Source: an uncultured Bacteroidota bacterium | Lineage (GTDB): Bacteria; Bacteroidota; Bacteroidia; AKYH767-A; OLB10 | Assembly (NCBI GenBank): GCA_900696575.1 | Contig: CAADHD010000027.1 | Coordinates: forward strand, 62,001-126,000 | Length of the DNA stretch: 64,000 bases | Direction: 5' to 3' | Shown: in pieces, positions 35,247 through 40,929 of the stretch | Numbering within the stretch: position 1 is the first letter of the stretch | Layout of the letters: every line of letters begins with the position of its first letter | Program-made: the position numbers and the translations under genes | Notes under the pieces: generated by a model | Told to the model about the DNA's origin: nothing | What the model saw: only the letters and a program-made list of their open reading frames with translations | Database searches by the model: none

Positions 35247-36434
35247 TTACTTCAGCACACTCAGCTTTTCTCCTACTTTCCTGAAAGCCTCCACCGCCCT
35301 GTCAATGTGATGATTTTCGTGAGCAGCCGAAAGCTGCACCCTGATGCGCGCATTGCCTTTGGCCACTACCGGAAAGAAAAACCCGATGACATAAATGCCT
35401 TCTTCAAGGAGCATGGCGGCAAAATCCTGCGCCAGCTTTGCTTCATAAAGCATAATCGGAACAATCGGGTGAATACCCGGCTTAATATCAAAACCTGCTT
35501 CGGTAATTTTTTTTCTGAAATAAGCCGTGTTGTCCCATAGCTTATCGCGTAAGGCAGTGGTTTCTGTCAGCATATCAAAAACGGCAATGGAAGCGCCCAC
35601 AATCGAAGGAGCCAAGGAATTACTGAAAAGATAAGGCCGCGAACGCTGCCTCAGCATCTCAATTATTTCTTTTCTCCCCGATGTAAATCCCCCCATCGCC
35701 CCGCCCAGCGCTTTGCCCAGCGTTCCGGTTATAATGTCTATTCTCCCCATTACTCCGCAATACTCATGTGTTCCCCTTCCCGTCTTACCCATGAATCCCG
35801 AAGCATGGCATTCATCAATCATGATGAGCGCACGGTAACGGTCAGCTAAGTCGCATATTTTATCCAACTGTGCAATCGTTCCATCCATGCTGAATACCCC
35901 ATCTGTCACAATAATGCGGTGGCGTTTATTCTGTGTGACCTTAAGCTTTTCCTCAAGGTCGTTCATGTCGTTGTGTTTGTAGCGGTGGCGGTCAGCCTTA
36001 CACAATCTCACCCCGTCAATTATCGAAGCATGGTTCAGTTCATCACTGATGATGGCATCCTGATCATGAAAGAGCGGTTCAAACACACCGCCATTGGCAT
36101 CAAAGGCCGCTGCATACAGAATGGTGTCTTCGGTTCCGAGAAAAGCGGAAATTTTCTGTTCAAGAGTTTTGTGAATGTCCTGTGTTCCGCAGATAAACCG
36201 AACTGATGACATGCCATAGCCATGCGAGTCAATGACTTTTTTTGCTGCTTCAATTACCCTGGGATGTGACGAAAGGCCGAGGTAATTATTAGCGCAGAAA
36301 TTCAGAACCGGTTTGCCGTTCGCTGTTATCTCAGCTCCCTGAGGTGTACTGATTACCCTCTCCTGTTTAAACAATCCGGCATTTTTTATTTCCTGAATCT
36401 CCTGTTCAAGAATTGGTTTTAATGTCTGGTACAT
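35247..36434 (-). CDS. kbl: Glycine C-acetyltransferase (2-amino-3-ketobutyrate CoA ligase)
   Basis: 395 aa, the family length. PLP-dependent alpha-oxoamine synthase: [54 protein letters not shown], and the PLP lysine in [10 protein letters not shown]. The start [20 protein letters not shown] and overall length fit Kbl better than the related KAS-type BioF. It cleaves 2-amino-3-oxobutyrate to glycine and acetyl-CoA in threonine breakdown. No threonine dehydrogenase gene is in the window. Confidence 0.9.
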
Positions 36435-36454
36435 TGTGAAATTGATTTAAAGGG

Positions 36455-36462
36455 CGAATGTA
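36455..36462 (-). promoter_or_regulatory. Putative -7 box of kbl (TACATTCG)
   Basis: On the minus strand the sequence reads TACATTCG, one base off TAnnTTTG, 20 nt upstream of the kbl ATG. No clear -33 element. Confidence 0.35.
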
Positions 36463-36589
36463 TTGATAAGCGCCTTAAGCATGTATTCCGGCAGTTTAAC
36501 CTTATAAAATGTGAACACCCGGTTGAAAAATTTTAAAGTCAAAATTTTTTTAACTGGAATACCCAAATGTATTTCTGCTTATTATTGCA

Positions 36590-36690
36590 GTAACAACAAC
36601 CTGTCTGTGGAATGACGTTCTTTTAAGGCAGGACGAAGTTACCCCAAATCAACATTTTTATCCCGGTCGTTCCACCGGCCGGGTTTTTTC
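36590..36690 (+). ncRNA. Candidate small structured RNA of unknown family
   Basis: A stretch without coding potential folds on paper into an outer helix GTAAC (36590-36594)/GTTAC (36638-36642) and an inner helix CCTGTCT (36600-36606)/AGGCAGG (36626-36632) with a 19-nt loop. It ends in a classical terminator hairpin with a T-run (36662-36689). A near-consensus -7 box TATTATTG (36580-36587) sits directly upstream. It does not show the SRP RNA, tmRNA or RNase P core sequences I know. The upstream gene kbl points away, so the terminator is not explained by any coding gene. Confidence 0.45.
36662..36689 (+). terminator. Rho-independent terminator with no upstream coding gene
   Basis: Stem CCCGGTCG (36662-36669) / CGGCCGGG (36676-36683) with one G-T pair, loop TTCCAC, then six T (36684-36689) and a further T-rich stretch. 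Orientation is plus-strand. It probably ends the small RNA. Confidence 0.75.
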
Positions 36691-36748
36691 TTTTTTACTA
36701 TCCTCCCACCATTGTTTGAGTCACCGTAAGTAATCTTTCTATCCGATG

Positions 36749-36970
36749 AACGTCACTGCAATCCGTCACAGGCGGAGAAGCAGTCGCATCAATTTCATCA
36801 CTGCACATCTCTGCGCCAGTTACTAGGTGCCTGTCATGCCGACCTGTTCCGTGTTAATCGGAAAGTATAAGGCATCTATTCAGTAATTAATAGTTTCCCT
36901 TACAACAATTCAGCCCAATACCCGTTCAGTATAATTAACAATTCCTGTTAATACTTATTATTGCCAACTG
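36749..36970 (+). repeat. Left copy of a degenerate direct repeat
   Basis: The first 47 nt (36749-36795) match 38671-38718 closely (shared core CACAGGCGGA with AGCAGT and CATCAATTT after it). Further shared blocks follow in the same order with decay and gaps: AGGCATC, TAATTAAT, CCCT, ATTCA, ACCCG and ATTATTGC. The left copy's internal inverted repeat is mutated in several places. The two copies bracket the bacteriocin-like gene pair. Confidence 0.6.
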
Positions 36971-37380
36971 TTTGAAGATATAATTATTCCTTTTACGTTT
37001 ACCACGTTGATTGCAGGAAGGGTTTGGAAGTTTAAAAAACATTCAGATGAATAAACTTTCCATTTTCCCCAGTAAACTAAAAGAGGCGGTGCCCCCCGCT
37101 TATCACAGCATCTTTTATTAAACTGCACACATACCGTTACCCGAAGAGGTAAAATATGGGTCACTATATCATCCCGTTTATCGGACGCTTTAAAAACAGG
37201 AGGGCTTATGTACGGATGATGCATTATATGCTGCAGCATGACCGGAGGTTATCCGGCAGCAGCAGGCAGGGGAAAAAGCAGCGCCCGAAGACCTGCTATC
37301 GGTTTGCAGGCTTACTGATAAGCTAAACCTGCAGCGGTTCCCGAAAAGCTTGAAGAGTAGGGAGAATTCGGAAAAAAATT
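36971..37380. other. Intergenic stretch without a supported gene
   Basis: About 410 nt between the left repeat and the signal-peptide ORF. A 55-codon plus-strand frame starting at 37155 and a minus-strand frame across 36958-37239 exist, but neither shows a recognisable motif or a start context. The block around 37200-37340 is richer in G+C than the AT-rich gene that follows. It contains ATGCTGCAGCATGA (37227-37240), also found at 38749-38762 beside the right repeat. It looks like decayed accessory DNA. Confidence 0.4.
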
Positions 37381-37467
37381 ATGAAAACAAAGTATATTTT
37401 ATTTACAACATTATTTTTTATTCTCTTTTTGCTATTTAATACATCTTTTGCACAGCAAAAAACCTAA
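37381..37467 (+). other. Signal-peptide ORF cut off by an in-frame TAA
   Basis: ATG at 37381 encodes a 28-residue peptide with a textbook signal sequence (MKTKYILFTTLFFILFLLFN, then TSFAQQ), ended by TAA at 37465-37467. The next gene's ATG at 37483 is in the same frame, only five codons further. The simplest reading is that this is the secretion signal of that gene, separated by one nonsense change or a base-call error. Confidence 0.65.
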
Positions 37468-37482
37468 GGTCATCTTCATATA

Positions 37483-38283
37483 ATGACAAGTGAAACGGAA
37501 GGGGAAGTAAGACTGCGAAATGGGGTTACAATTCCTTATTTCGATCAGGATTTTGTCGGTAAAGGATTGCATCAAAATGATTTTGTCGGCTTCAATATAG
37601 AAATGATCAATAATATGTTACTGGCTTCAAATTTAGAAAAGCAAATAACGAATCCCGCGCTTTTAAATTTGTTTTCCGGAATTGAGACAATTGAAAGTTT
37701 GGACGACCCTTTAATAATCGCTTTTATTAACAGCTCAGAATACTCTTCTCTGTCTGCTGATGTTAAACAAGAATTGGAAATTAGGCATGGAAATGTTTAC
37801 GTGGCACATTATTCAAATATAAACCTAAAATTACTTATTATTCCATTTAAGCAACATTCTGTTACTCAATATGCCTATTTAACTTGTATTACTCATGTAA
37901 AAGTTACAGGAAATACATCAAGATATAAATTTTATAACATGATATGTGAAATTGAAAATAATTCCGTTGAAACAATAAAGGTGAGTTTTAAAAGTATGAA
38001 TCAATCACTGCATTATTCTTTTTATCGATATCCGGATGGAATTTGCAGTGATCTGATGTTAGGTATTCCCATTCCCCAAGATGAGTTACTTATAGATGGG
38101 ATCCCTCCTGTGATGATAGGATTAAAACCAAAGTGTACAGAGTTAGATTTTCTCGCCTGCTTTGTTTGCGGATGGCAGGAGTGCATGAATGAGGTTCTGT
38201 GCGGTCTTGCTTGCGGTAGTACGCCATTAGGCTGGATCGCATGTTCTATAGGCTTTGCTATTGGTTGTTTAATCGGAGGCTAA
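37483..38283 (+). CDS. Protein with Cys/Gly-rich tail resembling halocin C8-like bacteriocin precursors
   Basis: 266 aa as read from 37483, about 300 aa if the in-frame TAA at 37465 is a lesion. Residues 1-217 show no motif I recognise. The last 49 residues hold eight Cys: CTELDFLACFVCGWQEC, then MNEVLCGLACGSTPLG, then WIACSIGFAIGCLIGG. A CxxC, then Cys-x3-Cys, then a hydrophobic Gly-rich end recall halocin C8, whose precursor also joins a roughly 200-aa N-terminal (immunity) part to a Cys-rich C-terminal peptide. The gene is AT-richer than its neighbours, suggesting transfer. A small membrane protein gene follows 11 nt later. The function is inference. Confidence 0.5.
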   Translation: MTSETEGEVRLRNGVTIPYFDQDFVGKGLHQNDFVGFNIEMINNMLLASNLEKQITNPALLNLFSGIETIESLDDPLIIAFINSSEYSSLSADVKQELEIRHGNVYVAHYSNINLKLLIIPFKQHSVTQYAYLTCITHVKVTGNTSRYKFYNMICEIENNSVETIKVSFKSMNQSLHYSFYRYPDGICSDLMLGIPIPQDELLIDGIPPVMIGLKPKCTELDFLACFVCGWQECMNEVLCGLACGSTPLGWIACSIGFAIGCLIGG

Positions 38284-38294
38284 AAACATATCAC

Positions 38295-38486
38295 ATGAAA
38301 CGATTAACAAATATAATTTCTGTCGTTAGTTTTATAGGTGGCGTAATACTAATTATTGCCGGAGCAGCATTTTATGTACAACAAGATAAAAATACCTTAG
38401 CATTAGTTCTGTTGCTTTCGGGTAATCGTAATCTGTTTTTTGGAATTTTGTTGTATGTAATTCTTAATAGAGAGAAACTACATTAA
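38295..38486 (+). CDS. Small two-helix membrane protein, possible immunity protein
   Basis: 63 aa from the ATG at 38295 (MKRLTNIISVVSFIGG). Two hydrophobic helices (about 7-27 and 36-56) are joined by QQDKNT, with a basic N-terminus and a short charged C-terminus. It begins 11 nt after the bacteriocin-like gene on the same strand, with similar base composition. Small two-helix proteins beside bacteriocin genes often give immunity, but the sequence itself shows no family. It could also be an unrelated small membrane protein. Confidence 0.5.
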   Translation: MKRLTNIISVVSFIGGVILIIAGAAFYVQQDKNTLALVLLLSGNRNLFFGILLYVILNREKLH

Positions 38487-38670
38487 CTTTCCGCCTCTTT
38501 TTGCTGACATAAAAGATTTTTTGGTTGATGTAAGCCCCCTAAGTAACGATTCCTGCTTGCACCAAATCCGCTTGCGTTTCTTCTGAAGCAATGAATCTGC
38601 AGCGCACCAGTTATACTTCTCACGGCCTTTTACGGGAAAACCATCTTCCCAATAAATCCCAAACTACAAC
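38487..38670. other. Intergenic stretch, no gene seen
   Basis: No reading frame with recognisable content and no RNA motif seen. A CTGCAGCGCACCAGTTA block (38598-38614) resembles CTGCGCCAGTTA in the left flank (36810-36821), another sign that the flanks are related. Confidence 0.35.
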
Positions 38671-38845
38671 AACGTTACTGCTTTTCCGCCACAGGCGGAA
38701 AAGCAGTAACATCAATTTAAGTACAGCACCTATTCCGCGCTTATCATGCTGCAGCATGAAGGCATCAACGCATAATTAATCAAACCCTAAAACCTATTCA
38801 ACTTATCCCGCACCCGCATACATTCTTTAATTATTGCAAAAGTTG
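38671..38845 (+). repeat. Right copy of the degenerate direct repeat
   Basis: It begins with the same segment as the left copy and keeps the shared blocks AGGCATC, TAATTAAT, CCCT, ATTCA, CACCCG and TTATTGC in order. It lies about 185 nt downstream of the small membrane protein gene. It contains the intact inverted repeat described separately. Confidence 0.6.
38674..38710. repeat. Perfect 17-bp inverted repeat with 3-nt loop
   Basis: Arms GTTACTGCTTTTCCGCC (38674-38690) and GGCGGAAAAGCAGTAAC (38694-38710) are exact reverse complements around ACA. No T-run follows on either strand, so it is not a standard terminator. The sides do not fit attC R'/R'' boxes. It may be a REP-like or MITE-like hairpin, or a protein-binding site. 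Confidence 0.8.
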
Positions 38846-38909
38846 AAATTATGCAAGACTTCAGGATATCGGAAAAGGGAGAAAACAACCCTTACAACTT
38901 CACCATTTT

Positions 38910-39793
38910 CTAGAAAACTGATTTGCCACGACAGGTCAATTTTAAAAAGTAAAAACCCGATGGAAGTTTTTCTGTATCAAGTAATAATTTTTGCTCACGA
39001 GTTGATGAGGATAACATCTTTTTGCCTTCAGCAGAAATCAATTCAATACCGCTTTCTCCTGCCGGGTGAAAAAGAAAATTAATTTCAATTTGTTCACTAC
39101 AGGGGTTGGGCGAAACAGACACTACATACTTTGCTACCTGCTCATCCATTGATAATGGCCAGCAGGTGTTTCCGGCCCATGTCCATATTAATTCTGTACT
39201 GTCGCTGAAACACAGCGGTTGTGGTCACCAGTCAAACGGTGGCACCTTGCGCGGAATTATACCATTGCTTATATCTCCAATGCATTCCACGCATCGCGGG
39301 GGCATATAAAAAACAGAAATAGGATTATTGATGATAGTAAAATCATAAGCTTTCCTCAATCCGGCAAAAGTCATTTCAGTATTAACAGCAGTTACCACCA
39401 TCCGCACTGAATCAATCACCTCCGGAAAGGCGAATGTGTCGCCTACCGTAAGGTTAAAATCATAAAGCAGGTATTCGTCATTAAAAAAATTAACATGATA
39501 ATCCCTGCAAAATACCTGTTTGTTTTGTTCTCGGATAAAAGCGATCGGAGGTACGGGAGCGCTTCCCGTTGTAGTATCACCTAAAAATACTTTATGATAA
39601 ACCACATTATTTATGAGCGTGTCACCTTGAACAAAATACCATCGTCCATGTGAAAAATCTGGCCAAACGGTTCCGGCATGGTGTAATCTATGCTCCAGTA
39701 TGCTTTGTCAGTCGGAAACGAAATATATGGTTGGCTTTTGCTTGGTAGAGAAACAGCTAACAAAACCGGTAATATGAACTTGAGGTTTTTCAT
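38910..39793 (-). pseudogene. T9SS type A cargo protein, broken by a frameshift and a stop
   Basis: Read on the minus strand: a signal peptide (MKNLKFILPVLLAVSLPSKSQ, from 39793), a middle part typical of Bacteroidota secreted proteins (RWYFVQGDTLINNVVYHKVF) and a C-terminal type A sorting domain (VVSVSPNPCSEQIEINFLF ... SGFYFLKL, ending 38910). The N-terminal frame runs to a stop at 39611, while the natural continuation WPDFSHGRWYF lies one frame off, so one base appears lost near 39665. A TGA at 39225-39227 interrupts the second part, after which the frame stays open. The two lesions make it a pseudogene unless they are sequence errors. Confidence 0.7.
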
Positions 39794-39810
39794 TTTTAAA
39801 ACAAAACTAA

Positions 39811-40929
39811 TCATACCCCCTGATACATCTTCCCCGGCAGCGATTTAATCACTCCTTTAAACTCAAGGCTCAGCAGCGTTGCCGAAATTTTACTTACCGG
39901 CAAAGGAAGAGATGAGGTAATTAAATCAATATGCGTTTTGCCATTCTGCTCAATCAGATTGGCCAATTGCTTTTCTTCTTCGTTCAGCTCAATAAATAAT
40001 TGCCGCTGCCGTGGTTTTTCCGTTTCGCGCTTTTCTAAATTCCATTGCATCATCCCTGCAATATCATCAGCCGATTCAACCAATGCAGCCTTATTGGTTT
40101 TAATGAAATAATTGCAGCCTGCGCTGTAAGTGTCATTCGTACGGCCAGGTATGGCAAACACATCACGGTTGTAACTGTTGGCTATCTCGGCAGTAATGAG
40201 TGCGCCTCCGCTTTTTGCTGCTTCAATCACCAATACGGCATCGCACATACCGGCTACAATGCGGTTGCGCTGTGGAAAGTTTTCCTTATCAGGGTTCGTC
40301 CCCGTCATAAACTCTGTGAGCAACCCGCCCTGCTCCATCATCTTTTCTGCCACAGGTTTGTGGAGGGCAGGATAAATACGGTCAAGCCCGTGGCCTAACA
40401 CTCCGATTGTTGGCATTTCGTTTTTGATGGATGCTTTATGTGCAGCAATGTCAATTCCGTAAGCCAGTCCGCTTACTATAATAATATCATAAGCCTTCAG
40501 GTCTTCCGTAATTTTTTCAGTCATCTGTTTGCCGTAATCACTGGCATTGCGAGTGCCTACTATGGCAATCATGCGGTGATGATTCAAATTCGCTGTGCCT
40601 TTGTAATAAAGCAGTACCGGAGCATCGCTGCAGTTTTTTAACCGTGAAGGATATTCTTTATCCAGATAGAACAGCGGCTTTATTTCATACCTTTCAATAA
40701 AAACCAGTTCCTTCTCTGCTCTTTCAAAAGTATTATGACTTATTATTTTCTCTGCCGTTGCCGGCCCGATACCGGGTATCTTTTCAAGATTCTTTTTCTT
40801 CTCCTTAAAAACTCCCTCTACGCTGCCGCAATAGCCAACTAAATTGCGTGCCGTAACACTACCCACCCCTTCGAGCAAGGTAAGGGCAATACGCCATTTC
40901 AATTCCTCATCAACTACAACCTGTTGCAT
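39811..40929 (-). CDS. dprA: DNA-processing protein DprA/Smf
   Basis: 372 aa. N-terminal helix-hairpin-helix region (LEKIPGIGPATAEKI, about 46-60), then the Rossmann-like DprA core with AIVGTRNASDYGKQM, VSGLAYGIDIAAHK, GVLGHGLDRIYP and FPQRNRIVAGM, then a C-terminal winged helix (about 310-372). It loads RecA on incoming single-stranded DNA during natural transformation. No other competence genes are in the window. It is divergent from the TonB receptor gene; the starts are 58 nt apart. Confidence 0.92.
   Translation of the reverse strand: MQQVVVDEELKWRIALTLLEGVGSVTARNLVGYCGSVEGVFKEKKKNLEKIPGIGPATAEKIISHNTFERAEKELVFIERYEIKPLFYLDKEYPSRLKNCSDAPVLLYYKGTANLNHHRMIAIVGTRNASDYGKQMTEKITEDLKAYDIIIVSGLAYGIDIAAHKASIKNEMPTIGVLGHGLDRIYPALHKPVAEKMMEQGGLLTEFMTGTNPDKENFPQRNRIVAGMCDAVLVIEAAKSGGALITAEIANSYNRDVFAIPGRTNDTYSAGCNYFIKTNKAALVESADDIAGMMQWNLEKRETEKPRQRQLFIELNEEEKQLANLIEQNGKTHIDLITSSLPLPVSKISATLLSLEFKGVIKSLPGKMYQGV

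Follow-up and report, generated by a model that had tools for sequence, protein, structure and literature searches.

Does a gene that ends in a cysteine-rich peptide, found in a bacterium of the phylum Bacteroidota, belong with the halocin C8 bacteriocins of haloarchaea, or is it something of its own? The gene lies in a window of 64,000 nucleotides (nt) from an uncultured Bacteroidota bacterium (assembly GCA_900696575.1, contig CAADHD010000027.1, positions 62,001 to 126,000), between kbl and dprA and directly ahead of a gene for a protein of 63 amino acids (aa). An earlier note on this DNA had proposed that the pair could be a bacterial relative of the halocin C8 class with its own immunity protein. 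Our tentative answer is that the gene codes for an orphan precursor destined for export, which ends in a hydrophobic peptide rich in disulfides and has a small membrane protein as its partner; on this reading it is bacteriocin-like by layout only and probably disabled. The comparisons described below do not support placing the protein in the halocin C8 class.

The precursor frame and its cysteine-rich tail

The last 49 residues of the focal protein hold eight cysteines (Cys), with a CxxC and a CxxxC motif and a hydrophobic end (...GCLIGG), and both the coordinates and the motifs given for this tail in the earlier note were confirmed. The Cys spacing is C-x8-C-x2-C-x5-C-x5-C-x3-C-x10-C-x6-C, and the charged residues are four acidic and zero basic. 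The window has 95 open frames that reach 100 aa or more, and none of the others has more than 5 Cys in its terminal 49 residues. The main frame stays open for 271 codons, whereas 2000 shuffles of the bases of this DNA gave a maximum of 167 and a mean of 59; it is thus not a product of chance. Its GC content by codon position (0.43/0.34/0.29) is like that of a coding sequence.

Looking upstream in the same frame, a short open reading frame (ORF) translates to MKTKYILFTTLFFILFLLFNTSFAQQKT, with KTK in the n-region, a long hydrophobic core and, by inspection, a cleavage site at NTSFA/QQ. The order along 37381-38283 in translation is then MKTKYILFTTLFFILFLLFNTSFAQQKT, a TAA stop, GHLHI and the ORF of 266 aa, which bears out the earlier claim of a signal-peptide ORF just upstream. 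Since the two ORFs share a frame and are separated by only one stop, they give the impression of a single gene interrupted by a nonsense codon, and a nonsense mutation is the simplest reading of the split. With its signal peptide parted from the body of the protein by this stop, the gene is probably inactive in this genome; if translation restarts at 37483, a remnant that is not exported would be left. A programmed frameshift at the A-run ahead of the TAA was considered as well, and was rejected since the two ORFs do not differ in frame.

Two other accounts of the stop have to be weighed here. It is improbable, in our view, that there was never a nonsense mutation and that a signal-like peptide of 28 residues and a cytoplasmic protein of 266 aa, starting at ATG 37483, are two separate functional products. 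Both ORFs do start with ATG and the main one stays open over its full length despite the AT-rich DNA, but the frame is shared, the signal cleavage site falls right at the join, the stop is only 15 nt from the next ATG, and a hydrophobic tail with eight Cys would be unusual in a cytoplasmic protein. Still less credit can be given to an error of assembly or sequencing, by which the stop would be unreal and the living strain would have an intact exported protein. The frame is indeed otherwise open across the join, but the genome, of 2.87 Mb in 35 contigs, has a completeness of 100% and a contamination of 0.02%, the large neighbouring genes are intact, and a lone stop without a change of frame is an atypical type of error.

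The earlier note had also described a two-helix membrane protein of 63 residues just downstream. Its position, its length and its first helix, which is clearly hydrophobic with a Kyte-Doolittle maximum of 2.66, stand as described, while the second helix is only marginal (about 1.64, with N-R-N inside). Given this arrangement we infer that a single gene (37381-38283) would once have encoded an exported precursor, consisting of a Sec-type signal peptide, a middle domain of about 220 residues and the acidic, hydrophobic 49-residue peptide, whose eight Cys would lend themselves to forming disulfides once outside the cytoplasm. The gene of the small membrane protein is probably on the same transcript. 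The product probably acted in the manner of a two-part bacteriocin precursor: it would be exported and folded with disulfides, its tail would be released or would act on the membrane while still attached, and either the middle domain or the 63-aa protein would protect the producer.

There are several points that weigh against a bacteriocin, and we gather them here. Many bacteriocins are positively charged, and this tail carries no positive charge at all. The single-sequence AlphaFold model of the tail is all helical at low confidence, with a predicted local distance difference test (pLDDT) score of 59, and the model of the whole protein reaches only 35. The second helix of the partner is weak, neither a dedicated exporter nor a protease for processing was identified near the focal gene, and with neither homologue nor family the function has no support from conservation. 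A likeness of layout without shared sequence can also be a coincidence. It is possible, if somewhat doubtful, that the protein is a secreted or periplasmic Cys-rich orphan with no antimicrobial role, whose tail would be a disulfide-stapled membrane anchor or a metal-binding end bound by the small membrane protein. This would agree with the lack of homology to any antimicrobial family, with a tail that is strongly hydrophobic and acidic, and with the membrane protein next to it. What speaks for a bacteriocin instead is the combination of eight Cys in the terminal 49 residues with a small membrane neighbour, a layout shared with known precursor bacteriocins.

Comparison with genuine halocin C8 loci

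The idea of a bacterial relative of the halocin C8 class found no support in the sequence. The model TIGR04449 (halocin_C8_dom) had no match at E-values up to 10 in the protein, in the tail (residues 218-266, for which the earlier note had proposed such a search) or in the whole genome, and PF22862 (Hac8_like_N) had none in the focal protein at the same limit. Both models work, since genuine halocins score at the level of 1e-12 and 1e-44 or better (tails 9.5e-12 and 4.8e-12 with TIGR04449; N-parts 1.6e-45 and 1.1e-44 with PF22862). Alignment with hhalign to three genuine precursors gave probabilities of 0.2-0.4%, a test that is weak by itself because the alignment is shallow, with an effective number of sequences of 1.3-1.6. 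Across Bacteroidota, TIGR04449 in 296 genomes and PF22862 in 395 gave only sub-threshold matches and none over the cut-off, and those sub-threshold TIGR04449 matches that were opened were not Cys-rich precursors. For some of the opened sub-threshold and tail matches the frame that was read may be offset; the tail matches were later located properly.

The details of the peptide and its export point the same way. Halocins have the spacing C-x2-C-x7-C-x3-C-x7-C-x12/13-C-x7-C-x8-C-x8-C, which is unlike that of the focal tail. The signal ORF has no twin arginine, as export by twin-arginine translocation (Tat) would call for, and is cut off by the TAA, so that a halocin-type precursor layout is present in the focal frame only when the in-frame stop is disregarded. 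It is therefore very unlikely that the gene is a true but extremely divergent member of the class. In favour of such a member are the like order of parts, a precursor of 301 codons compared to 296-310 aa and the CxxC...CxxxC motif; against it are the silent models with their working controls, the hhalign result, the number and spacing of the Cys, the Sec-type signal and the lack of any Bacteroidota genome over the cut-off.

The likeness of architecture that the earlier note had pointed to did find a counterpart. A halocin C8 sequence served as probe to locate genuine halocin C8-like loci on plasmids, and the plasmid records are themselves annotated as halocin C8-like. In two of the three loci a hydrophobic protein of 68 aa follows the precursor gene, 24 nt behind it in Halobacterium salinarum and 19 nt behind it in Haloferax larsenii, which could also count for a divergent halocin. 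These proteins have one strong helix and one weaker one. The third locus, in Haloferax lucentense, has another downstream gene, for 230 aa with a hydrophobic start. The pair of proteins in the window agrees with the first two loci in order and in sizes, but no alignment was found between the 63-aa protein of the window and the haloarchaeal downstream proteins. As a side result, the 68-aa protein of these two haloarchaeal loci is a possible accessory immunity protein. It begins MATVKTG, is conserved at L070:2804-3010 and L071:2799-3005, and is annotated as hypothetical only.

An orphan gene in an insertion between kbl and dprA

No homologue of the focal protein was found in 99 relatives, in 395 genomes of the phylum or in all 42 genomes of the order, and none of the tail alone in 395 genomes of the class; these samples overlap and come to about 700 Bacteroidota genomes overall. 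Genome and viral contig collections, as well as plasmid and phage collections, gave no homologue either. The contig scans require exact matches of eight residues, which distant relatives would escape, and the term orphan is thus valid only at this sensitivity. Neither the focal protein nor the 63-aa protein has a match in Pfam, NCBIfam or PHROGs, and the focal protein has none among solved structures. For the protein (E 0.001-0.1) and for the tail there were weak tblastn matches, and those that were opened turned out to lie in unrelated frames or to belong to the open frames of different proteins. A PADLOC match to ThsB (E 0.0037, 15 bits) was taken as chance, and a made-up Cys-rich query had no match in plasmids.

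The surroundings of the gene (Table 1) suggest where it came from. The gap between kbl and dprA is 3376 bp here, compared to 117 bp in L060 (same genus), 99 bp in L062 (same order) and 89 bp in L063 (same family), all of which have nothing between the two genes. What L060 has between them is not alignable to the interval, so that the interval marks the edges of the insertion only approximately. GC content at third codon positions is 0.29 in the focal gene and 0.19 in the 63-aa gene, compared to 0.44-0.52 for kbl, leuS, dprA and a TonB receptor, and the AT-rich character noticed earlier is thereby borne out. The best reading is that the locus was recently acquired; we read the stretch as a species-specific acquisition that shows signs of decay, and the focal gene would have arrived with this AT-rich insertion.

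Table 1. Positions of the focal gene, its parts and its surroundings in the window
Feature	Position	Strand	Basis or remark
Signal-peptide ORF	37381..37467	+	28 codons and TAA; translation, cleavage site by inspection
In-frame TAA, putative nonsense codon	37465..37467	+	divides signal peptide from main open frame
Main open frame, orphan protein	37468..38283	+	271 codons; 266 aa counted from ATG 37483
Cys-rich hydrophobic tail, residues 218-266	38134..38280	+	sequence; low-confidence model all helical
63-aa small membrane protein, possible partner or immunity protein	38295..38486	+	11 nt after the focal stop
Direct repeat copy 1, with hairpin	36749..36816	+	alignment to copy 2
Direct repeat copy 2	38671..38740	+	perfect 17-bp hairpin GTTACTGCTTTTCCGCC/GGCGGAAAAGCAGTAAC
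kbl-dprA interval, extent of insertion	36435..39810		about 3.4 kb; edges not fixed exactly
kbl	35247-36434	-	left flank of interval
dprA	39811-40929	-	right flank of interval

Two copies of a direct repeat flank the focal genes and are the only ones in the whole genome at up to 3 mismatches. They are 82% identical over 45 nt at a spacing of 1923 bp, with a local score of 58 compared to at most 30 in 200 shuffles. Copy 2, which stands behind the 63-aa gene, may be a terminator. A reading of the flanking hairpins, by eye, as those of an integron cassette was dropped, given that there are two genomic copies and that core ends of the attC type were not seen; a search of Rfam gave no match. A palindrome of 14 bp, ATGCTGCAGCATGA, occurs at 37228 and again at 38746.

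Two further features lie in the same interval. One is the gene of a protein exported by type IX secretion (38910-39814, minus strand; Por_Secre_tail, PF18962, E 3.9e-09), which is in three pieces, split by a change of frame and an in-frame stop, and looks like a pseudogene; a broken neighbour of this kind fits decay of the inserted stretch. The other is an ORF of 56 codons at 37156-37326, in the upstream part of the insertion, with no family match.

Significance and relation to known systems

With one orphan whose signal is broken, the locus is a lead only. Should metagenomes yield a whole family, the layout of a precursor with built-in immunity, so far a haloarchaeal one, would be extended to unrelated sequences of Gram-negative Bacteroidota, and a new scaffold for disulfide-rich peptides would be gained. 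We consider it unlikely, on present evidence, that the locus stands for a new and unrelated class of bacterial two-part bacteriocin precursors, made of a middle domain and an acidic hydrophobic peptide with eight Cys and accompanied by a small membrane immunity protein, which would have reached the halocin C8 layout independently and would move among Bacteroidota on small AT-rich insertions.

Among known systems, the cargo of type IX secretion is represented by a gene that adjoins the focal one within the same stretch, but the focal protein has neither a sorting tail nor a Pfam match. Bacteroidetocin precursors are short and have no 220-residue middle domain or eight-Cys tail, a distinction that we draw by description only. 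Their likeness to the focal gene is that they too are antimicrobial peptides of the same phylum, of the pediocin-like class IIa (PMC6671954).

In the halocin C8 system Tat exports the precursor, which matures into HalI and a peptide of 76 aa (PMC11509114), and the counterpart for the focal gene would be the export of a middle part and the Cys peptide. The two differ in that no similarity of sequence or profile is found in either domain, in the Tat signal of the one and the Sec-type signal of the other, and in the Cys, of which the halocins have 9-10 in about 70 residues and the window protein 8 in 49, with unlike spacing. If the in-frame stop is disregarded, they have in common a signal, an N-part of about 200 residues and a Cys-rich hydrophobic C-terminal peptide with CxxC and CxxxC motifs (ProC8 with HalI in the halocin). 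In Halobacterium, Haloferax larsenii and the window locus alike a small hydrophobic protein is encoded directly downstream.
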